From: Rhodobacter sp.
GTDB taxonomy: Bacteria; Pseudomonadota; Alphaproteobacteria; Rhodobacterales; Rhodobacteraceae
Assembly: GCA_027489175.1 (NCBI GenBank)
Contig: JAIYAE010000019.1
Span: 1-64,000 of the forward strand
Direction of reading: 5' to 3'
DNA length: 64,000 bases
The notes under the pieces are model-generated. The model had not been told where the DNA came from. It did not search any database and saw only the letters and a list, made by a program, of their open reading frames with translations. Made by a program: the position numbers and the translations under genes. Positions 609 to 22,829 of this stretch are shown in pieces (the first letter of the stretch is position 1; each line of letters begins with the position of its first letter).

Positions 609-1790
609 TCAGGCCAGCGACAGCGCGCCGTGCAGATCGGCGATCAGGTCGCCCGCATCCTCCAATCCCAAAGACAGGCGGATCAGGCCCGGCGTGATGC
701 CAAGCAGGTCCTTCTGGTCCTGCGGCAGGCGCTGGTGGGTCGTGGTGGCCGGATGGGTGGCGATAGTCTTGGCATCGCCCAGGTTGTTGGAAATCTTGGC
801 AATTTCCAGCGCGTTCATGAAGCGGAAGGCGGCGTCCTTGCCCCCTTTCACCTCAAACGCGACCAGCGTCCCGCCTGACCCCATCTGCGCCATCGCAAGC
901 GCGTGCTGGGGGTGGCTGGGCAGGCCCGGGAAGATGACCTTGCCGACCTTCGGATGCCCTTCCAGCGCCTTGGCCACCGCCAGCGCGGTATCCGCCATCG
1001 CCCGGCAGCGCAGGTCCAGGGTGGCCATCCCGTTCAGGTGCATCCAGGCGGTGAAGGGCGACATGCTGCCGCCGGTGTGCTTCATGTAGGGTTCCAGGAC
1101 CTTGCGGATGAAGGCTTCGGTCCCGCAGACCACGCCGCCCAAGGCGCGGCCCTGCCCGTCGATGTGCTTGGTGGTCGAATAGACCACGACATCCGCCCCC
1201 TGTTCGACCGCGCGGGAAAAGATCGGCGTGGCGAAGACGTTGTCGCAGATCACCAAGGCGCCTGCGGCATGGGCAATTTCGGACACGCCGCGAATGTCGA
1301 CCAGTTCCAGCGTCGGGTTCGACATGCTCTCGAAGAACACCACCTTGGTGCCGGGCGTCACCGCCGCGCGCCAGGCGTCAAGGTCGGCCCCGTCCACAAA
1401 GGTCACCCGCACGCCAAAGCGCTGCAGCACCTCTTCCAGGACGTAAAGGCAGGACCCGAAAAGCGCGCGAGAGGACACCACATGATCCCCCGCCCGCAAG
1501 GCCGACATCAGCGCGCCGGACACCGCCGCCATGCCGCTGGCGGTGGCGAAGGCGTCTTCGGTGCCTTCAAGGGCTGCGATGCGCTCTTCGAACATCCGGG
1601 TGGTGGGATTGCCGTAGCGGGCATAGATGAACTCATCCTCGCCCGCCTTCACAAAGCGCGCTTCAGCGGCCTCGGCAGTGGGGTAGACGAAGCCTTGCGT
1701 CAGGAAGATCGCCTCGGCCATCTCGCCATACTGGCTGCGGCGGGTGCCTTCGTGGACCAATGTGGTGCGGGTTTTCCAGTCTTTCGTCAT
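609..1790 (-). CDS. metZ: O-succinylhomoserine sulfhydrylase MetZ
   Basis: This 393-residue PLP enzyme of the Cys/Met metabolism family makes homocysteine from O-succinylhomoserine and sulfide. The Schiff-base lysine is Lys208 in STTKHIDGQGR, and the substrate-binding block YARYGNPT lies near residues 56-63. The open frame extends upstream to 1967, but the extension covers the riboswitch and terminator-like hairpin, so the start MTKDWK at 1790 is preferred. Regulation is directly visible: a SAM-II aptamer and an intrinsic-terminator-like hairpin sit between promoter and start, which predicts repression when S-adenosylmethionine is abundant. MetZ and not a cystathionine enzyme is favoured by the conserved N-terminus and by the riboswitch, which is typically found on metA, metX or metZ. 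Confidence 0.93.
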   Translation of the reverse strand: MTKDWKTRTTLVHEGTRRSQYGEMAEAIFLTQGFVYPTAEAAEARFVKAGEDEFIYARYGNPTTRMFEERIAALEGTEDAFATASGMAAVSGALMSALRAGDHVVSSRALFGSCLYVLEEVLQRFGVRVTFVDGADLDAWRAAVTPGTKVVFFESMSNPTLELVDIRGVSEIAHAAGALVICDNVFATPIFSRAVEQGADVVVYSTTKHIDGQGRALGGVVCGTEAFIRKVLEPYMKHTGGSMSPFTAWMHLNGMATLDLRCRAMADTALAVAKALEGHPKVGKVIFPGLPSHPQHALAMAQMGSGGTLVAFEVKGGKDAAFRFMNALEIAKISNNLGDAKTIATHPATTTHQRLPQDQKDLLGITPGLIRLSLGLEDAGDLIADLHGALSLA

Positions 1791-1820
1791 CGCGCCATTT
1801 CCCAAACGTGGCCAAGGGCC

Positions 1821-1854
1821 AAGAAAAAACCCCGGACACGAAAAGGTGCCGGGG
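1821..1854 (-). terminator. Intrinsic-terminator-like hairpin in the metZ leader (attenuator)
   Basis: On the minus strand CCCCGG plus CAC pairs with GTG plus CCGGGG (one bulged base) around a 6-base loop and is followed directly by six T residues at 1829-1824. It lies between the SAM-II aptamer and the metZ start, so it can act as a SAM-dependent transcription attenuator. A small alternative stem GGGC-AATG-GCCC just upstream overlaps its left arm and could be the competing structure; that pairing is inference. Confidence 0.75.
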
Positions 1855-1866
1855 CCATTGCCCTTC

Positions 1867-1920
1867 ACCTCTTTAGCGGCTTGTTTAACGTGGCCCGCAA
1901 TCCGGTAACAAATCGCCACG
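1867..1920 (-). promoter_or_regulatory. SAM-II riboswitch aptamer upstream of metZ
   Basis: Reading the minus strand from 1920, the stem CGTGG (1920-1916) pairs with CCACG (1893-1889). The conserved GATTTG follows the first stem strand and GCTAAA (1877-1872) follows the second, in the order and spacing of the SAM-II pseudoknot known from alphaproteobacterial metA/metX/metZ leaders. The downstream gene is metZ, as expected. It binds S-adenosylmethionine and turns the methionine pathway down. Confidence 0.93.
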
Positions 1921-2050
1921 ACCGGATGCATACGCCCCGCATGGCGCAGGGTCAACCCGGGCGTCATGCAGGTGTCACCCGCGCGTCATGGCGCCGTTGC
2001 TGCCCTGCGGCACAAGCAACGGGCACAGCAGCCGGACCCGGAACAAGGCC

Positions 2051-2959
2051 ATGCCCGATGATCCCCGCCCGATCCGCGCCGATGCCTGCCCACAAGGCCT
2101 GACGGTCGACTGGGACCGGCTGGCCCGCAAGCTGGACGCCCTGCCCCCGGGCGCGCCGGTGGTGGCGATGGTCCATGGCTGGCGCTATGCGCCGGGGATC
2201 GTGGCGGATTGCCCGCACGGGTCCATCCTGTCTCTGGACCCAGGAACGGCGGACCGCCGCGCTGTCAGCTGGCCCCGGCATCTGGGGCTGGACGGGCAAG
2301 CGGGCCTGGGTATCGCCCTTGGCTGGCCCGCGAAATGCGACCCCTGGCGCGCACAATTCCGTGCCGCGCGCACCGGTGCGGCGCTGGCCACCATCGCCCG
2401 CCGGGTTCATGCCCTGTCGGGCCGCCCCTTGCAGGTGATCGCCCATTCGATGGGCGCGCGGGTGGCACTGGCCGCCCTGCCCTTGGTCGAGCCGGGCCAG
2501 ATCAGCCGCATCATCCTTCTCGCCGCGGCCGAGACGCGGGGCCGCGCCCTTTCCGCCCTTGCAACCCCCGCAGGACGGGTGGTTGAGGTGGTCAATGTGA
2601 CGACACGGGAAAACGATCTTTTCGACGCCTGTTTCGAATGGGGTATCCATCTCGGCCTGCGCACCTCCATCGGGCAGGGGTTGGGGCAAAGCTGCAGCGG
2701 CTGGCATGATCTTTGGATCGACCAGCCGCGCAGCATGGCGGGGCTGGCCGCCCTTGGCCATCCTTTGGCCGATCCGCCACGCCGGATCTGCCATTGGTCG
2801 CCCTATCTGCGCCCCGGCACCATCGCACTTTATCGCGCGCTGATTGACGGGCGGCTCTCTGCCGCCGACCTGCCGCGCCACCGGCCGGGACGGCGCTGGT
2901 CGCGGCTGTTGCTTGGCGGGCAAGAGGCACGTTTCCGGCTTGGCCAGCCCACGACCTGA
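2051..2959 (+). CDS. Alpha/beta hydrolase-fold protein
   Basis: The product has 302 residues from the ATG at 2051. VVAMVHGWRYAP near residues 38-49 resembles the oxyanion-side HG motif, and the nucleophile elbow VIAHSMGAR near residues 132-140 gives a serine nucleophile in an alpha/beta hydrolase fold, followed by LILLAAAETRG-like sheet sequence. No signal peptide is seen, so it is probably cytoplasmic. The substrate is not evident; esterase or lipase-like activity is the family expectation. It diverges from metZ, so the metZ leader shares its upstream region. The frame is open back to 1988, but an upstream start would lie in the intergenic region and 2051 fits protein homology better. Confidence 0.8.
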   Translation: MPDDPRPIRADACPQGLTVDWDRLARKLDALPPGAPVVAMVHGWRYAPGIVADCPHGSILSLDPGTADRRAVSWPRHLGLDGQAGLGIALGWPAKCDPWRAQFRAARTGAALATIARRVHALSGRPLQVIAHSMGARVALAALPLVEPGQISRIILLAAAETRGRALSALATPAGRVVEVVNVTTRENDLFDACFEWGIHLGLRTSIGQGLGQSCSGWHDLWIDQPRSMAGLAALGHPLADPPRRICHWSPYLRPGTIALYRALIDGRLSAADLPRHRPGRRWSRLLLGGQEARFRLGQPTT

Positions 2960-3040
2960 CCCACCCCTTGCGCGCTTGCTTTTCGGCCCAAGGTGACAGA
3001 CGCTTGGGCCTGTTCCTTCCGTGCATCCCTGCAGGCCCCC

Positions 3041-4168
3041 ATGCGCTTTCGCCTATTTCCTGCCCTTGTCCCGGCTGTCCTGCTTCTGGCCATGCCCGCC
3101 CAGTCCCAGACCTGCGCCGACCGCAGCGGCGATTATGCCAGCCGCATCTTGCTCTGCGATCAGGCCTTTGCCATGGCCGACAGCGATGCGGCCGCCGCGG
3201 ATGCCCTGGCCCTCAAGGGCGAGGCACAGCGCCTGTCCGGCGATCTTGAGGGTGCCGCCACGACCTTGGCCCAAGCGCTTCGGCTGACGCCGACCAACGC
3301 CTGGCTTTGGGTCGAACTTGGCAATGTCCGCTATGACCAAAGCGACATCGCCGGCGCGCTGGCGCATTATTCGGCGGCGCTTGCGGTTGAGGATTACCCC
3401 GATGCCTGGGCCAACCGGGCCGAGGCGTGGTGGGAATTCCGCATGGCGCAAAGCTGCTCGGATGACGCCGATCAGGCCCTGCGGATCGACCCGCAATACG
3501 CTTATGCGCATGAGATCAAGGGCCGCTGCCTGATCGACCTTGGCCGCGCGGATGAGGCGATCAGCTATTTCGACACGGCGATCGCCTTGGCCCCCGGCTA
3601 TCAGAACGCCTACCGCAACAAGATGGCCGCGCTGGCCGACCTTGGCCGCATGGAAGAGGTGGTGGCGCTGGCCGATCTGGCCCTGCGCCCGGAAACGGTG
3701 CAGAACCCGAACCCGCGGATCGAGGAAGACATCCTCGCCCGCCGCCTGCTGGCCCTGGCTGAGTACACGCCACCCGCCATGATCGGTGCCGAGGCCGAGG
3801 CCCTTCTGCGCCGGTATCCCGACAATTTTGCCGCGCTGAACGTCAAGGCCCGCACCTTGCTTGCAACCGGAAATCTGGCCGAGGCGGATGCCCTGACCGC
3901 CCCCTTGCGCGCCAATCCGGACGGGCTGTCGCTGGCGGCGGTCTATCATGACACGCTGGCGCAGATCGATGTGGGCCTTGGCCGCCTTGATGACGGCCTG
4001 CGCAATTATGAGGCCGCGCTGAACGCTGATCCGAACCTGTCCAGGATCTACGCCCGCAAACTGTCGGAACTTGGGTTCCTGCCCTTGTCGAATGCGCCGT
4101 CAGGGGTGCTGACGGCGCTGCGACGCTGTGTCGATGTCAAGAAAACCGGCTGCCTGGTGTCAAGCTAG
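3041..4168 (+). CDS. Secreted tetratricopeptide-repeat protein
   Basis: The 375-residue protein begins with a Sec signal peptide (hydrophobic stretch ending near AQSQT, about residue 22). Several TPR units follow, visible as repeated patterns such as ALAHYSAALAVEDYPDAW, AISYFDTAIALAPGY and GLRNYEAALNADPN. TPRs form helical scaffolds for protein binding, here in the periplasm. No catalytic motif is seen. It follows the alpha/beta hydrolase by 81 bases on the same strand and may be co-transcribed. The start at 3041 is chosen because it begins the signal peptide; the frame is open back to 2993. Confidence 0.85.
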   Translation: MRFRLFPALVPAVLLLAMPAQSQTCADRSGDYASRILLCDQAFAMADSDAAAADALALKGEAQRLSGDLEGAATTLAQALRLTPTNAWLWVELGNVRYDQSDIAGALAHYSAALAVEDYPDAWANRAEAWWEFRMAQSCSDDADQALRIDPQYAYAHEIKGRCLIDLGRADEAISYFDTAIALAPGYQNAYRNKMAALADLGRMEEVVALADLALRPETVQNPNPRIEEDILARRLLALAEYTPPAMIGAEAEALLRRYPDNFAALNVKARTLLATGNLAEADALTAPLRANPDGLSLAAVYHDTLAQIDVGLGRLDDGLRNYEAALNADPNLSRIYARKLSELGFLPLSNAPSGVLTALRRCVDVKKTGCLVSS

Positions 4169-17262: not shown

Positions 17263-19515
17263 ATGGGCATGCCTGAACGCAGCGAAAGCGACAGTCGAAA
17301 ACTTCTGCGCCGCTTGCGCGACACCCTCGCCGTGCCGGGCGCGGGGCAAGACCGGCTTGACCAGATCACCCATCTGATCGCTGACAGCATGGGGACCGAG
17401 GTCTGCTCGATCTACCTTTTCCGCGACCCCGAAACGCTGGAGCTTTGCGCGACGGAAGGCCTGAAGAAGGAAGCCGTCCACAAGACGCGGATGAAGCTGG
17501 GCGAAGGCCTTGTTGGCCGCGTTGCCCGCAACGGCCTGCCGATCAACACTGCCGATGCGCCGGGCGAAAAGGGCTTTCGCTACATGCCGGAAACGGGGGA
17601 AGAGCTTTACTCTTCTTTCCTCGGCGTGCCGATCCAGCGGGTTGGCGAAAAGCTGGGCGTGCTGGTGGTGCAATCCAAAACCGCCCGCCAGTTTTCCGAA
17701 GACGAGATCTACGCCCTCGACGTCGTCGCCATGGTCCTGGCCGAGATGACGGAACTTGGCGCCTTCACCAGCGACGAAGGCGGGATGCGCGCGCTCCACA
17801 AGCAGCCGGTGATGCTGCGCGGCACCTCCGGTCAGGAAGGCGCTGCCGAAGGGCGGGTCTGGCTGCATGAACCGCGCGTCGTCATCACCAACCCGGTGGC
17901 CGACGACCCCCTGACCGAGATTGACCGCATCCGCGACGCCGTGGGGCAACTCCGCGTCTCGGTCGACGACCTTCTCTCGGCCGAAAGCCTCGACAAGGAC
18001 CAGAAGGCGGTCTTGGAGGCCTACCGGATGTTCGCCCATTCCCGCGGCTGGCTGCGGCGGATGGAGGAAGACATAATGCGCGGCCTTTCGGCCGAAGCGG
18101 CGGTAGAGAAAGAACAATCCGCCACCCGCAACCGCCTGGAACAGGTGCCTGACGCCTACCTGCGTGAACGGCTGTCGGACCTGGACGACCTCTCTAACCG
18201 CCTCCTCCGCATCCTGACCGGCCAGGGCCGTGACACCGGGGCCGAGATGCCGGAAAACCCGGTTCTCGTGGCCCGCAACATCGGCCCGGCGGAACTGCTG
18301 GAGTATGGGCGCAAGCTGAAAGGTGTGGTGCTGGATGAAGGCAGCGTCGGCAGTCACGCCGCCGTCGTCGCCCGCGCGCTGGCGATCCCCCTTGTCATCA
18401 ACACCGACCGTATCACCGCTGAGGCGCTGAACGGTGACGCGATCCTTGTCGACGGCGACCAAGGCATCGTCCACCTGCGCCCCGAAGAAACCGTCGCCCG
18501 CGCCTTCCGCGACAAGATCGCCATGCAGGCCAAGGCGCAGGAACGTTACGCCAGCCTTCGCGGCCTGCCCGCCACGGCGACCTGCGGCACGACGGTGGCC
18601 CTTCACATGAACGCTGGCCTCATGGCCGACCTGCCGTCGCTTGAAGGCTCCGGCGCTGAAGGCGTGGGCCTTTTCCGCACCGAACTCCAGTTCCTCGTCC
18701 GCTCCAAGATGCCGCAGCGGGCGGAACTCGCCCGGCTTTACGCCCGGGTGATGGACGCGGCCAAAGGCAAGCGCGTCGCCTTCCGCACGCTTGATATCGG
18801 GTCAGACAAGGTTCTCCCCTACATGAAGCCGCAGGATGAACCCAACCCCGCGATGGGCTGGCGCGCCGTCCGCGTCGGCCTTGATAAACCCGGCGTCCTG
18901 CGCATGCAGATCCAGGCCCTGATCCGCGCCGCCAACGGCCGCCCCCTGACCATCATGTTCCCCCTCATCACCGAGATGAGCGAGTTTCAGGCCGCCCGCA
19001 GCCATGCCCTGCGCGAACTTCACCGCGAGAAATCCCTCGGCCATCCCGTCCCCGAACGGGTGGAGATCGGCGCGATGATGGAGACGCCGTCTCTTGCCTA
19101 TGCGTCAAGAGCGTTCTTTGAGCTGACGGATTTCATCTCTGTCGGCGGCAATGACCTGAAACAGTTCTTCTTCGCCGCCGACCGCGAGAATGAACTGGTC
19201 CGCCGCCGCTATGACACCCTGAACCTGTCGTTCCTGGGCTTCCTCGAACAGATCGTCGCCCGCTGCCGCGAGACGGACACGCCCCTGTCCTTTTGCGGCG
19301 AAGACGCAGGTCGCCCGATCGAGGCGCTGGCGCTGGCCGCCATCGGCTTTCGCAGCCTGTCGATGCGCCCGGCCTCGGTCGGCCCGGTCAAGGCGCTGTT
19401 GCGCCGGGTGAACCTTGATGAGGCCCGCGCCGTGATCGACCGCGCCCGCGCCGAAGGGGCCGAAACCGCGCGGCCCCTCTTGATGGACTGGCTGGCCACC
19501 CAAGGGCCAACCTGA
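17263..19515 (+). CDS. ptsP: PEP-protein phosphotransferase PtsP (enzyme I of the nitrogen PTS)
   Basis: The 750-residue protein starts the nitrogen PTS by taking phosphate from PEP and passing it to NPr. An N-terminal GAF domain (about residues 15-165) is followed by the PEP-utiliser N-terminal region, the swivelling domain with the phosphorylated histidine His365 in GSVGSHAAV, and the C-terminal TIM barrel with EGVGLFRTELQFL, DIGSDKVLPY and SVGGNDLKQFFFAADREN. GAF domains in this protein sense nitrogen signals such as glutamine in studied species. A second possible ATG is at 17269. It is convergent with the HprK-like gene, only 6 bases away. Confidence 0.96.
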   Translation: MGMPERSESDSRKLLRRLRDTLAVPGAGQDRLDQITHLIADSMGTEVCSIYLFRDPETLELCATEGLKKEAVHKTRMKLGEGLVGRVARNGLPINTADAPGEKGFRYMPETGEELYSSFLGVPIQRVGEKLGVLVVQSKTARQFSEDEIYALDVVAMVLAEMTELGAFTSDEGGMRALHKQPVMLRGTSGQEGAAEGRVWLHEPRVVITNPVADDPLTEIDRIRDAVGQLRVSVDDLLSAESLDKDQKAVLEAYRMFAHSRGWLRRMEEDIMRGLSAEAAVEKEQSATRNRLEQVPDAYLRERLSDLDDLSNRLLRILTGQGRDTGAEMPENPVLVARNIGPAELLEYGRKLKGVVLDEGSVGSHAAVVARALAIPLVINTDRITAEALNGDAILVDGDQGIVHLRPEETVARAFRDKIAMQAKAQERYASLRGLPATATCGTTVALHMNAGLMADLPSLEGSGAEGVGLFRTELQFLVRSKMPQRAELARLYARVMDAAKGKRVAFRTLDIGSDKVLPYMKPQDEPNPAMGWRAVRVGLDKPGVLRMQIQALIRAANGRPLTIMFPLITEMSEFQAARSHALRELHREKSLGHPVPERVEIGAMMETPSLAYASRAFFELTDFISVGGNDLKQFFFAADRENELVRRRYDTLNLSFLGFLEQIVARCRETDTPLSFCGEDAGRPIEALALAAIGFRSLSMRPASVGPVKALLRRVNLDEARAVIDRARAEGAETARPLLMDWLATQGPT

Positions 19516-19521
19516 TCCTTC

Positions 19522-20718
19522 TCAGCCCACCAGACCCGCGGCAACAAGGCTGGACATCAGACCCCTGACATCCTGCAAAAGCTGGGCGCGGTCGGCCCCC
19601 GGAAAGGCCTCGGCCAAAAGCTCCGCAACCTCGTCAGCCGTGGCGGGGGCATCCAGCAGATCCCAGATCGCCGCGGCCAGCGGGTCCATCCGGTGAATCG
19701 CGCGGCCTTCGGGGTCAGCCAGATACAGCCCGTCGCCGATCACCCGTGCCACCGCCCCGGCGCGCTGCATGAGCGCGGCCCCCTCGCCGGGACGGCTAGG
19801 CGGCGTTGCGAAATCGGCCAGGCGAAAGCGCACCGGCGGGGCCGATGTCTCTGGCACCACCGGCCAGTCGGCAAGGCCCGCCTCCAGGCAGGCCACCGCA
19901 TCGGCCAGATCGCCATAGCTCAGCCGCCAGACCGGCAGCGCCTGCAGCGTGGCAGCCATCACATCCAGAATGTCGCCGGAATGCCGGTCGCGGGTGAAAT
20001 GCTGATGCAGAAGCGCATCCATCGCCGCATCGGGCGGCACCGGCTCAAGTCGTGCGGCCATCGGGCCATCCTGACGATCGAGGATCACGAAGGCACCGAC
20101 CGGCAGACTGTCGCCCCAGGCCGGTGCTTCGGGCAGGCAAAGGTATTTGTATTGCCGGTTCCCGGGCCCCGGAACCGCCGCAGCCCAATCGCGGAACGCT
20201 TGTGGCAGGGTCGCGGGCAAGGGCAAGCGCAGGCGCGGGGCAATGCCCATCGACTGGACCAGCGCCACCGTGCCGCCGGGGAAACGGATCGGCAGCACAT
20301 CGTCGCTGAAGACTGGATGCCCGGCTTGGGCAAGGCCCGCCGACAAGGTGCTCTTGCCGGCCCGGCGCACATTCGGAAAGACCACGATCCGGCCCGCAAG
20401 GACCACCCCTGCCGCATGCAGGCAGATGATCCGGTCATCTTCTGCGGGCAGCGCCATGGCGATGGCGGCAATGGCGTCACAGACCGCGTTCACCGGGTCA
20501 AGCGTTTGCGACGGTCGCTCTTCGACATGGCTTTGACAGTGGTAGCGATCCGCCTTTGCTGCTGCGGTAATCGAAAAGAACGGCCGGGCGGCAGGGTCGG
20601 CGGGGCCAGTCGTTTGTGGCCAGCCTGCGGCAATGTCGCCAAGAAGTGGCACCAAGGCTTCGGCACCCGTCAGGCGCAGGGGGGCGGCAAGGCCCCTGAA
20701 ATGCACATCCAGCGCCAT
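19522..20718 (-). CDS. HprK-like serine kinase domain fused to a C-terminal PqqD (RiPP recognition) domain
   Basis: The 398-residue protein has two parts. Residues about 90-300 resemble the HPr(Ser) kinase C-terminal domain: CLHAAGV (99-105), a degenerate P-loop NVRRAGKST (116-124) that keeps Gly121-Lys122-Ser123, and SDDVLPI (138-144). Residues about 320-398 resemble PqqD: IHRMDPLAAAIWDLL, ADEVAELLAEAFPG and a final LMSSLVAAGLVG. PqqD domains bind leader peptides of ribosomally made, modified peptides; HprK-like kinases phosphorylate some lasso peptides. The gene directly upstream encodes a Ser/Gly-rich Tat-signal protein, the obvious substrate candidate. This is not the short alphaproteobacterial HprK that lies beside PTS genes, although ptsP is convergent next door. 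Confidence 0.85.
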   Translation of the reverse strand: MALDVHFRGLAAPLRLTGAEALVPLLGDIAAGWPQTTGPADPAARPFFSITAAAKADRYHCQSHVEERPSQTLDPVNAVCDAIAAIAMALPAEDDRIICLHAAGVVLAGRIVVFPNVRRAGKSTLSAGLAQAGHPVFSDDVLPIRFPGGTVALVQSMGIAPRLRLPLPATLPQAFRDWAAAVPGPGNRQYKYLCLPEAPAWGDSLPVGAFVILDRQDGPMAARLEPVPPDAAMDALLHQHFTRDRHSGDILDVMAATLQALPVWRLSYGDLADAVACLEAGLADWPVVPETSAPPVRFRLADFATPPSRPGEGAALMQRAGAVARVIGDGLYLADPEGRAIHRMDPLAAAIWDLLDAPATADEVAELLAEAFPGADRAQLLQDVRGLMSSLVAAGLVG

Positions 20719-20736
20719 TGGATCGGCCTATAGGGT

Positions 20737-20766
20737 CCCTCTGGCGCCCTATGCGGCGCCAGAGGG
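20737..20766 (-). promoter_or_regulatory. Long perfect hairpin between the Ser-rich protein gene and the kinase gene
   Basis: CCCTCTGGCGCC (20737-20748) pairs perfectly with GGCGCCAGAGGG (20755-20766) around a 6-base loop. It is in the 65-base gap between the two genes and lacks a T tract on the minus strand, so it is better seen as an RNA-stability or partial-termination element that could give more substrate than enzyme. Confidence 0.7.
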
Positions 20767-20783
20767 GGCTTGCAGGATCAGGA

Positions 20784-21125
20784 TTACGGGTTGGTCGCCG
20801 CGGCACCGGCATCGCTGCAGCCCGCGTCATCATCCGTCGGGCCCGAGCAGGTGCTGGGCGTGGTCGGCGAGCTGTTGTCCGACGGCGTGCTGGCTGCCGA
20901 CTGCGGCGACGGCGTGCTCGTGCCGCTGCTGTCGCTGCTGCCGCTGGAACCACCGCTGCTGGAGCTGCCGCCGCCACCGCTGTCGCCGCCCGAACCGCTT
21001 GCGCCGCTGGCGCGCGCCACGCTGAGGGTGGTCATGGCCGGTGCCACGTAGGCCGCAAGGGCAAGCGCGCCAATCCGGGCCAGTGCCCGGCGACGCGAGG
21101 TGATCAGGCTGTCAGAAGTGCTCAT
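20784..21125 (-). CDS. Small Ser/Gly-rich exported protein with Tat-like signal; candidate substrate of the HprK-PqqD enzyme
   Basis: The 113-residue protein starts at ATG 21125 with AAAGGACAGAG upstream. An N-terminal SRRRALARIGALALA stretch (about residues 10-24) resembles a twin-arginine signal, though the usual Phe/Leu after the RR pair is Ala. The remaining about 73 residues are low-complexity: a Gly/Ser run, a Ser/Thr/Pro/Gln run, then the only two cysteines in TCSGPTDDDAGCSD and an Ala-rich tail. More than a third of the mature part is Ser or Thr. The composition, Tat-type export (which accepts proteins after cytoplasmic processing) and the downstream kinase-PqqD gene fit a modified secreted peptide. 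No family is recognised; a cell-surface linker-like protein is the alternative. Confidence 0.7.
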   Translation of the reverse strand: MSTSDSLITSRRRALARIGALALAAYVAPAMTTLSVARASGASGSGGDSGGGGSSSSGGSSGSSDSSGTSTPSPQSAASTPSDNSSPTTPSTCSGPTDDDAGCSDAGAAATNP

Positions 21126-21281: not shown

Positions 21282-22739
21282 TCAAAAGAGATCGGCATAG
21301 ACCCGCCGCAACTCGGCCTTCTGGACCTTTCCCATTGCGTTGCGCGGCAATTCGGTCAGCACCAGCACTCGTTTCGGGATCTTGAACCCCGCCAACCGGT
21401 CGCGCAGCCCGGCCCGGATCGCCTCGGGGTCAACCGGGCCGACCACGCAAGCCACGACCGCCTCGCCGAAATCGGGATGCGGCACGCCGATCACGGCGGA
21501 GGCCGCGATGCCCGGCAGATCGTCAATCGCGGCCTCCACTTCGGCAGGATAGACGTTGAGGCCACCGGTGATGACCAGATCCTTCGCCCGGCCCAAAATG
21601 CTAAGATAGCCATCGGCATCGAACGCCCCCAGATCGCCGGTCACGAACCAGCCATCGCGAAACTCTTTCGCGGTCTGTTCGGGCATCCGCCAATAGCCGC
21701 CGAACACATTCGGCCCCATCACCTCGATCGCCCCAGCCTCGCCCGCGGCGACCGGCTGCCCCTCCGGCCCGGCAATCCGCACCGAAACCCCCGGCAATGG
21801 CAGCCCCACCGTCCCCGCCTTGCGCGGGCCGTCATAGGGGTTTGAGGTGATCATGTTGGTTTCCGTCATCCCGTAGCGCTCCAGAATCACGTGACCTGTC
21901 CGCGCGCGCCATTCGGCATGGGTTGCTGGTGACAGTGGCGCCGACCCGCTGATGAACAAGCGCACGTGCGCACAAGCCGCCGGCGTCAGCCGGGCATCTG
22001 CAAGCAGCCGGGAATAGAACGTCGGCACCCCCATCATCACCGTCGTCTCCGTCAAGGCGGCAAGCACCGCCTCAGGCGCAAAGCTGCGCTGGAAGATCAT
22101 CGAGGCGCCCGCATAAAGCACGCAGTTCGTCGCCACGAACAGCCCATGGGTGTGAAAGACCGGCAGCACATGCAAAAGCACATCCTCCGCCGTAAACCGC
22201 CACAACCCGACCAGCGCCTCAGCGTTGGAGGCAAGGTTCTCCCGGCTCAGCATCACCCCTTTCGACCGCCCCGTCGTGCCCGAGGTGTAGAGGATCGCCG
22301 CAAGATCATCGGGCATCGACACAGGGTCGGAAAACCCCTCCTGCGCTTGCGATACAGTCTCAAGAAAATCCGTCAACCCAATGGATTTGCGGCATTTATC
22401 AACGATCTCGCCCACCCGCGCGCCATCGACCACCGCAAGCGCAGGGTCGGCATCGGTCAGGAAATGCATGGTCTCGGCCACGGTATAGCCGGGGTTCACC
22501 GGCAAAAAGACCACCCCCGCCCGCAAGCAGGCGAGGTAAAGCGCCAGCACCGCCTCACACTTGTCCACCTGCAGCAGCAGCCGGTCGCCCTTGACCAGCC
22601 CAAACTGCCGCAGCGCATTGGCCATCCGTCCCGTCTCGGCCAGAAGGTCCGCATAGGTCACAGGGGCATCGCCTTGCAACCAGATGCGCCCGGGCGTTGC
22701 GGCCTGATCCTTCAGCCTTGCGATGATATCCCTGGCCAT
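21282..22739 (-). CDS. matB: Malonyl-CoA synthetase MatB (acyl-adenylate-forming)
   Basis: The 485-residue ANL-superfamily enzyme activates malonate to malonyl-CoA using ATP. The AMP-binding motif YTSGTTGRSKGVMLS, the LPVFHTHGLFVATN block, LERYGMTETNMITSNPYDG and the hinge GRAKDLVITGGLNVYPAEVE match MatB more closely than general acyl-CoA synthetases. The catalytic lysine is in the C-terminal NAMGKVQKAELR. The start MARDII at 22739 is chosen because GGAGGG lies 9 bases upstream. No malonyl-CoA decarboxylase or malonate transporter is adjacent, so the malonate source is not shown. Confidence 0.88.
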   Translation of the reverse strand: MARDIIARLKDQAATPGRIWLQGDAPVTYADLLAETGRMANALRQFGLVKGDRLLLQVDKCEAVLALYLACLRAGVVFLPVNPGYTVAETMHFLTDADPALAVVDGARVGEIVDKCRKSIGLTDFLETVSQAQEGFSDPVSMPDDLAAILYTSGTTGRSKGVMLSRENLASNAEALVGLWRFTAEDVLLHVLPVFHTHGLFVATNCVLYAGASMIFQRSFAPEAVLAALTETTVMMGVPTFYSRLLADARLTPAACAHVRLFISGSAPLSPATHAEWRARTGHVILERYGMTETNMITSNPYDGPRKAGTVGLPLPGVSVRIAGPEGQPVAAGEAGAIEVMGPNVFGGYWRMPEQTAKEFRDGWFVTGDLGAFDADGYLSILGRAKDLVITGGLNVYPAEVEAAIDDLPGIAASAVIGVPHPDFGEAVVACVVGPVDPEAIRAGLRDRLAGFKIPKRVLVLTELPRNAMGKVQKAELRRVYADLF

Positions 22740-22790
22740 GACCGTCCCTCCGCTTGCCATGAGGGGTCTACCGCCATCACCCGCGCAACC

Positions 22791-22815
22791 CAAGATTTTT
22801 CGCCGAAAAATCTTG
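22791..22815 (-). terminator. Terminator-like hairpin after ecsC
   Basis: CAAGATTTTTC (22791-22801) pairs with GAAAAATCTTG (22805-22815) around GCC. It lies between the end of the EcsC-family gene and matB on the minus strand. The core is nearly the same as that of the hairpin at 51037-51055. Confidence 0.65.
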
Positions 22816-22829
22816 CCCCGCACCAACCC

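Follow-up and report, generated by a model that had tools for sequence, protein, structure and literature searches.

What is the function of an HprK-like kinase that carries a peptide-recognition domain and is encoded directly downstream of a small, serine-rich protein with an export signal? This question is raised by a Rhodobacter sp. locus in the 64,000-nucleotide stretch of DNA analysed here (the window; assembly GCA_027489175.1, contig JAIYAE010000019.1, positions 1 to 64,000). An earlier interpretation made from the letters alone, called here the sequence-only reading, had described the two genes as a minus-strand unit and had suggested that the kinase modifies the small protein in the cytoplasm before export. 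Open reading frames were found on the minus strand for both, encoding proteins of 398 aa (19522-20718) and 113 aa (20784-21125). We consider it likely, with a probability of about two in three, that they form a two-gene protein-modification system, in which a recognition element (RRE) of the type used for ribosomally synthesised and post-translationally modified peptides (RiPPs) would capture the twin-arginine translocation (Tat) signal of the small protein, and the kinase would phosphorylate its Ser repeat before Tat export. This reading is drawn from sequence comparisons and predicted structures.

The 398-residue protein is a fusion of a P-loop kinase of the HprK/PEPCK fold with a C-terminal PqqD-type RRE. 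An AlphaFold2 model (pLDDT 95, pTM 0.91) gave phosphoenolpyruvate (PEP) carboxykinases and HprK/P as its top Foldseek matches, with TMq values of at most 0.46, and these relatives are therefore distant. The match to HprK-related kinase A (TIGR04352) was likewise weak, at 46.5 bits against a cut-off of 200. An alignment of 33 kinase-RRE sequences contained 17 invariant columns, among them H101, G121-K122-S123, D139-D140, R162, R164, Y190, R215 and W352; residues 121-123 (20350-20358, minus strand) are the GKS of the Walker A motif. Used as a profile, the same alignment matched the HPr kinases 3tqf and 1jb1, and the H...GKS...DD pattern aligned with the same pattern in the Coxiella enzyme 3tqf. 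By its conserved His, Walker A GKS and DD, the protein is classed as an active-type HprK/PEPCK-fold kinase. The genome also contains a second, short HprK-like match elsewhere (C25:19654), separate from the window kinase, which is thus an additional member of the superfamily.

At the C-terminus, Pfam PqqD (PF05402) covers residues 333-397 (E 2.9e-13; 50.4 bits against a cut-off of 23.4), and Pfam, Foldseek and profile alignment together place the domain at residues 323-397 (19528-19752, minus strand). This part of the model matched the lasso peptide RRE TbiB1 in complex with its leader (5v1v; Foldseek E 1.5e-3, TMt 0.79). When the profile of 33 sequences was compared with the PDB, it matched the lasso RREs TbiB1 (4e-8), TfuB1 and PbaB1 (9x90), and also LppB (9x8z), the RRE of the linear polyphosphorylated peptides (LPPs); a phmmer search of the PDB with the window RRE alone found nothing convincing. 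A PqqD-fold RRE therefore lies inside the modifying enzyme, as expected of an RRE-dependent, RiPP-type system. The Pfam match, the weak TIGR04352 match and the predicted fold together bear out the sequence-only reading's description of an HprK-like kinase fused to PqqD.

We examined 63 loci encoding related kinases, the window included, and retained 50 with full-length fusions. The 13 dropped before counting were one at a contig edge (L035), two duplicates (L117 and L118, of L031 and L032), two with a damaged kinase but with the partner present (L063, broken frame; L131, stop in the kinase match), one kinase match with neither PqqD nor partner (L065), one with kinase and RRE split in two overlapping genes (L112), and six partial, more distant matches (L113, L114, L115, L116, L132 and L133). 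Weak partial kinase matches in five genomes (G477, G548, G609, G697 and G782) lay outside the 63 loci. The sequence-only reading had named frequent fusion genes without a small Ser-rich neighbour as the observation that would count against it. That was not the outcome: in all 50 loci a small, Ser-containing protein with a Tat signal was encoded on the same strand immediately upstream of the kinase, with 11 to 199 nt (median 93.5) between the end of the partner gene and the start of the kinase match; in the window the distance between the genes is 65 nt. At L112 (G590:C1:459000-473000), where a related kinase and a discrete PqqD are encoded in overlapping frames, no Ser-repeat partner was visible within 4 kb. 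At L116 (G506:C1), a kinase match without PqqD, a protein with SRPSPAS-type repeats is encoded further upstream, and its signal contains no YxxP.

The association was also found starting from the partner. A profile was made from the first 46 residues of 35 partners (in the window, 20988-21125) and used to search 388 genomes of the family. It matched 33 genomes at E 1e-5, and in 30 of these the match was stronger than 1e-9. The kinase itself was matched at E 1e-10 in 30 of 394 family genomes, including our own (the match was partial in two, G123 and G367), and 29 of the 30 strong leader genomes fell within this set. In the remaining genome, G196, the kinase match (5e-10) is cut by the end of a contig. 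The three weak leader matches (G298, G019 and G007; 4e-6 to 7.5e-6) were Tat-type signals without YxxP. Only one kinase genome, G367, lacked the leader: its kinase match is without PqqD, and a genome-wide leader search was empty at E 0.01. With the overlapping samples of 394 and 388 genomes treated as one set, the co-occurrence of leader and kinase has a Fisher p of 2e-41. Given this co-occurrence and the pairing at 50 of 50 loci, we rejected the possibility that the small gene is a chance neighbour. The partners show the features of RiPP-type precursors, namely a conserved leader, a variable core and an adjoining enzyme gene.

The leader of the window protein comprises residues 1-39 (21009-21125, minus strand). 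It reads SRRRAL around the twin arginine R11-R12 (21090-21095) and ends in A-x-A, and by sequence and alignment it has both the twin-Arg signal and the cleavage site of a Tat substrate. R11, R12, Y26, P29, A37 and A39 were invariant in the 35 aligned leaders, which had been preselected with an RR...YxxP pattern. TIGR02811 ('formate dehydrogenase region TAT target') matched 31 of the 35 at E up to 1 (best 1.6e-5) and TIGR01409 matched nine (best 0.0015); a Pfam scan of the leaders gave no Tat family. Inside the Tat signal lies the sequence YVAPAM (21033-21050), which we propose as the site bound by the RRE because it resembles [Y/W]xxPx[L/V/I/A/F/Y], the motif bound by most discrete lasso RREs (Popov et al. 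2026, PMC13381572; here and below, published papers are cited from parts of their text). YxxPx[L/M/F/V] was present in 51 of 52 partners, these being the 50 from full-length loci together with those of L063 and L131. The sixth residue was L in 24, M in 14, F in 10 and V in 3, and in 45 of the 51 leaders the motif started 15 residues past the first basic pair. The exception, L131, has FVIP. In our own genome there were 17 matches to Tat profiles, not all of which are real signals. None of them had YxxP following the basic pair; in L150 the sequence reads WVRP.

Crystal structure and mutation have shown that the Tyr and Pro of the leader are needed for efficient binding by LppB, in which D70 hydrogen-bonds the Tyr and N33 fixes the kink at the Pro (PMC13381572). 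We aligned LppB with the 33 kinase-RRE sequences, counting its residues from the Met, a numbering that reproduces the published N33, D70 and F74. D70 corresponds to D383 of the window protein and is Asp in 32 of the 33; N33 corresponds to position 345, with Asn in 24 and Asp in 9; and F74 corresponds to position 387, which is mostly Leu (19/33). With the equivalents of D70 and N33 conserved, the principal published contacts with a Tyr-type leader are retained. The sequence-only reading had suggested recognition of the partner's N-terminal region by the PqqD domain; this idea gains a specific basis in a YxxPx[L/M/F/V] motif within the Tat signal, close to the motif of lasso and LPP RREs.

The 113-residue protein (20784-21125, minus strand) is a Ser/Gly/Thr-rich protein of exported type and the proposed substrate. 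It contains 29 Ser, 12 Thr and 2 Cys, in agreement with its earlier description as a Tat-signal, Ser/Thr-rich protein with two cysteines. The G+C content of its gene by codon position is 0.55/0.79/0.83, with a G+C-rich third position, and homologues occupy the same position in related genomes. Its Ser-rich region, residues 40-91 (20853-21008), is delimited by composition and Ser periodicity and is proposed as the modified core. It is followed by a C-terminal two-Cys motif, CSGPTDDDAGC (residues 93-103; 20817-20849), which is retained in close relatives.

In the 52 partners, whose median mature length is 74 residues, Ser accounted for 11.6 to 51.5% of mature residues and was the sole residue to reach at least 10% in every one; it was the commonest residue in 28, with G, R, A or K in the remaining 24. 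The residues between the serines varied (E, A, R, K, G, P or N), giving repeats of the types SEP, SAA, SRP and SNKSGK. Ser-Ser pairs exceeded the shuffle expectation at lag 3 (640 against 284), lag 6 (559 against 273) and lag 9 (507 against 261). The lag-3 periodicity was individually significant in 39 of 51 partners; L044, part of whose sequence is masked, was excluded from these statistics. Retention of Ser while the surrounding residues vary is the pattern to be expected from an enzyme that is directed at Ser and depends little on sequence context. In the L131 partner (G520:C4), SNKSGK repeats occur together with FVIP in place of YxxP. At L061 (G132:C98) a second, longer Tat-leader protein with SRP repeats is encoded at -2894 to -2483 from the kinase.

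The proposed RRE site sits within the Tat signal itself, and cytoplasmic chaperones such as NapD are known to bind Tat signals (PMC3712460). The fusion protein might accordingly be a Tat proofreading chaperone, comparable to a redox enzyme maturation protein, whose RRE masks the signal until the cargo is ready and whose P-loop domain only hydrolyses ATP or senses nucleotide, with no covalent modification. We regard this as unlikely. It leaves unexplained the conservation of Ser, alone among the cargo residues and with a period of three, and the fusion of the RRE to an HprK-fold kinase with conserved catalytic-type residues; moreover, the cargo is of low complexity, with no evident cofactor for loading.

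Different or further chemistry on Ser and Thr must also be weighed. These residues might, for example, be phosphorylated and then converted by elimination to dehydro residues, carry chains of polyphosphate, or receive a further group from enzymes whose genes lie elsewhere. A single Ser receives several phosphates from LppK and from kinases of the paeninodin type, and a nucleotidyltransferase gene is part of their clusters (PMC13381572). Two Cys, which could react with dehydro residues, are present in 28 of the 52 partners; Cys is missing from 20 of the 21 partners in the clade with basic partners, described below. No nucleotidyltransferase, lyase or cyclase was recognised among the gene families recurring in at least three loci, which were judged by reading and partly by profile scan, and we consider such chemistry improbable.

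Phosphorylation of the cargo, the reading that we prefer, would proceed as follows. The C-terminal RRE would bind YxxPx[hydrophobic] in the Tat signal, as the motif and the conservation of the binding pocket suggest, and would hold the precursor against the kinase domain. The kinase would then phosphorylate the repeat serines in the cytoplasm, a step suggested by its fold, its conserved active site and the presence of Ser as the one residue shared by the cargoes. The modified protein would be exported by Tat, and signal peptidase would presumably cut the leader at A-x-A. The Tat signal would thus double as a RiPP-type leader, and binding of the RRE may keep the signal from the translocase and so delay export until modification is complete. 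HprK-like kinases that phosphorylate Ser in precursor peptides are known from RRE-containing pathways, namely PadeK, ThcoK and LppK (PMC13381572, PMC9266682). With phosphates on their serines, SRP or SGK repeats would become zwitterionic and SEP repeats strongly acidic, which suggests, speculatively, a role at the surface or in metal binding.

Several observations weigh against this scheme. The HprK-type RiPP kinases described in two published accounts act on single serines, S3 in LPPs and the C-terminal Ser in paeninodin, and not on long repeats (PMC13381572, PMC9266682); they modify one Ser, sometimes with several phosphates, and multi-site action is therefore an extrapolation. Some partners are Gly- or Arg-dominated and Ser-poor, with only 9 Ser+Thr in the mature region of L107, and it is in such partners that the evidence for a Ser cargo is weakest. 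Met occupies the sixth position of the motif in 14 of 51 leaders, including that of the window. The published residue set matches 37 of 52, and most leaders outside it have Met. Against Tat profiles the window leader scores weakly (best match TIGR02811, E 0.14, 12.5 bits against a cut-off of 48), and it is absent from the TIGR01409 matches in its own genome. RRE binding requires an extended strand in the leader (PMC13381572), and the Tat signal bound by NapD is helical (PMC3712460). In an AlphaFold2 model of a read-through chain joining the L031 partner and kinase, the leader is helix up to Y26 and strand at 35-38, at a confidence too low to judge docking (pLDDT below 50 for residues 29-32, block means 59 and 53). 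Finally, partners were sought with a pattern that contained [RK]R and [YFG]..P, and the choice fell on the candidate with the highest Ser/Thr content; the occurrence of YxxP in 51 of 52 partners and the Ser counts are thus partly due to selection and are not independent evidence alone. Three results are independent of this selection: every full-length fusion locus gave such a partner, the leader profile found the same genomes, and the leader is carried by PepSY and subtilase proteins of sister clusters.

These clusters were delineated with a kinase tree of 50 rows, which has two deep parts of 29 and 21 rows. The first part includes the window clade, in which the pair lies beside a ptsP-like gene. 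Other clusters in this part encode a sensor kinase, a regulator of OmpR type, and a Ser-repeat protein that starts with a Tat leader and has a PepSY match below the threshold at its C-terminal end. Two Cys are present in 27 of its 29 partners, whose net charge ranges from -12 to +4. The 21 partners of the second part are basic (net charge +2 to +25), and 20 have no Cys (L109 has one). Clusters there often contain a subtilase and an extracytoplasmic function (ECF) sigma factor, which are so annotated in Paracoccus and Shinella; on the plasmids of these genera, small proteins and subtilases both bear the leader. With the 29 unlabelled rows excluded, the contrast of 11 PepSY rows to 10 S8 rows required one tree change for each type. 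The leader was present in 10 of 10 PepSY proteins re-found by their C-terminal motif and in 7 of 10 subtilases re-found by their catalytic motif; the three subtilases without it are a further point against the proposed scheme. The two-gene unit of the sequence-only reading thus holds for the window, as the simplest form, and does not extend to the sister clusters, where the pair is joined either by PepSY and two-component genes or by genes for a subtilase and an ECF sigma factor.

The recurrence of two-component or ECF sigma genes in the two cluster subtypes could be taken to mean that the small protein is a periplasmic sensor or regulatory partner rather than a substrate, and that the kinase acts elsewhere, for example in the adjacent two-component or ECF sigma/anti-sigma pathway. 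Such an arrangement seems very improbable. The window clade keeps the pair with neither regulator type among its neighbour families, leader and kinase co-occur also where no regulator is seen, and the RRE motif lies in the small protein. On the phosphorylation scheme, the neighbouring two-component and subtilase/ECF genes suggest that production is regulated and that processing takes place outside the cytoplasm, and the shared leader would route PepSY-domain and subtilase proteins through the same enzyme. We see the odds as even for a wider version, in which the Tat signal would serve as RiPP leader and the RRE-kinase would capture, by YxxP, a small set of Ser-repeat, PepSY and subtilase proteins, some of them encoded at a distance, phosphorylate their Ser-repeat regions in the cytoplasm and gate their export, as a dedicated secreted-phosphoprotein pathway of Pseudomonadota with substrates readable from the leader alone.

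Candidates encoded away from the kinase were seen in three genomes: a leader-bearing, Ser-rich subtilase (L201; G026:C11:867000-872500), a leader-bearing protein with SRP repeats (L204; G384:C35), and a Ser/Gly-repeat protein with YVAT rather than YxxP (YVAP) as its motif (L202; G206:C6). At L042, about 1220-3045 from the kinase, the gene for the PepSY protein looks split by an inserted gene, which we take to be of transposase type.

We know of no general bacterial route by which proteins are phosphorylated in the cytoplasm for export, although no search was aimed at one. If the proposal is correct, this would be such a route with a readable code, the RRE motif in the Tat signal marking the substrates, and it would join RiPP logic to Tat export. 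The range of HprK-type peptide kinases would also widen, from single serines in Bacillota to the Ser repeats of proteins in Pseudomonadota, and the two genes would make a compact tool for producing repeat proteins in phosphorylated form.

The nearest published kinds are the LPPs and the phosphorylated lasso peptides. The LPP system of Bacillota comprises the kinase LppK, the discrete RRE LppB and LppA (PMC13381572), and has in common with the window system an HprK-like kinase, a PqqD-type RRE, a linear substrate, a YxxP leader motif and the D70 and N33 positions. A separate RRE, a single phosphorylated Ser (S3), an SpI-like leader peptidase, an MsbA-like transporter and a nucleoside triphosphate (NTP) transferase are described for LPPs (PMC13381572), whereas in the window system the RRE is fused to the kinase and therefore not discrete, a Tat signal serves as the putative leader, the cargo is a Ser repeat and the host belongs to Pseudomonadota; LPPs and paeninodins are restricted to Bacillota in the same account. 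Pfam scans of 12 window proteins (14.2-28.6 kb) gave no SpI-like peptidase, NTP transferase or MsbA-like transporter, and an LPP-type peptidase or NTP transferase was not recognised, as judged by reading, among families recurring in at least three loci. An ABC-ATPase-like family is present in 8 loci, at scattered positions and on either strand. In phosphorylated lasso peptides such as paeninodin, PadeK or ThcoK likewise tailors a Ser of the precursor before maturation (PMC9266682); in the window system the cargo is an exported-type protein of the length given above and not a lasso core. A lasso cluster was rejected because the 12 proteins gave no Pfam match to a macrolactam synthetase/cyclase or B2-type peptidase. 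These scans showed no other RiPP enzyme either, as the sequence-only reading had stated.

HprK-related kinase A (TIGR04352) with PqqD_rel_X (TIGR04353) likewise combines an HprK-type kinase with a PqqD-type protein. The window protein gives weak family matches, and membership in TIGR04352 was rejected on the 46.5 of 200 bits and on the differing gene context. In 20 fetched TIGR04352 loci, from 27 matches over the cut-off and with flanks of up to 1.5 kb (three shortened by contig ends), no Tat-signal Ser-repeat gene was seen, only several short open reading frames with at least 20% Ser that appear to be chance frames. Canonical HprK shares the fold and the H/GKS/DD pattern; the window kinase is longer and fused to an RRE. 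Bufferins and other RiPPs made by multinuclear non-haem iron-dependent oxidative enzymes (MNIOs) likewise have a secretion signal, in their case Sec, in the recognition region, which raises the same question of premature export; they differ in their oxidative enzymes and in Sec export (PMC12452194). A term search of the main text of that paper found neither Tat, twin-arginine nor kinase, and one of the main texts of the RRE-Finder paper (PMC7470986) and a 2025 RRE survey (PMC12710340) found no kinase. In the open-licence PubMed Central literature no paper mentioned HprK and PqqD together, one unrelated paper mentioned RiPP recognition element and twin-arginine together, and titles and abstract starts contained no description of this kinase/partner pair. 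Within these searches, the suggestion of an undescribed system stands for the pair itself; it has to be narrowed for the principle, since a precedent exists in HprK-like kinases that act together with discrete RREs on peptides of lasso and linear type. The system differs from these in the fusion, the Tat leader, the Ser-repeat cargo and the phylum.

The kinase is distributed beyond the family. A search of the order at E 1e-15 matched 28 of 292 genomes, 22 with full-length and six with partial or weak matches (G520, G506, G464, G567, G477 and G548). Across the phylum 13 of 349 genomes matched, seven partially; the six full-length matches were in our own genome, in two other families of the class (G873 and G886) and, outside the class, in family f45 (G624, G658 and G872). 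Named relatives with the kinase are Tabrizicola aquatica, T. soli and Rhodobacter sp. YIM 73028, together with metagenome-assembled genomes (6 loci). Among 72,556 plasmid records, six matched at E 1e-20, four from Paracoccus and two from Shinella. In all six the enzyme is annotated as 'PqqD family protein', and in the two inspected the partner is a 'hypothetical protein'. The kinase is missing from two of the five genomes of our own genus listed in the order search, and its distribution is therefore patchy.

The pair is flanked in the window by genes for a GAF-domain, PEP-utilising (ptsP-like) protein on the plus strand (17263-19515), convergent with the kinase gene, and for an AMP-binding acyl-CoA ligase on the minus strand (21282-22826), upstream of the pair. 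In close relatives, matches to both families again adjoin the pair. The Pfam matches of the 12 window proteins comprised purine synthesis, aspartokinase type, the PEP-utiliser with GAF, acyl-CoA ligase, EcsC, GNAT, flavin reductase and TRAP transporter; one protein had no match. Between the two genes lies a perfect 12-bp inverted repeat (20737-20766, minus strand), with a folding z of -2.4, and 26 of the 50 intergenic stretches folded with z below -2 relative to shuffles (median -2.06). These figures are no more than suggestive of a possible mRNA processing or attenuation element, which may yield substrate in excess of enzyme.

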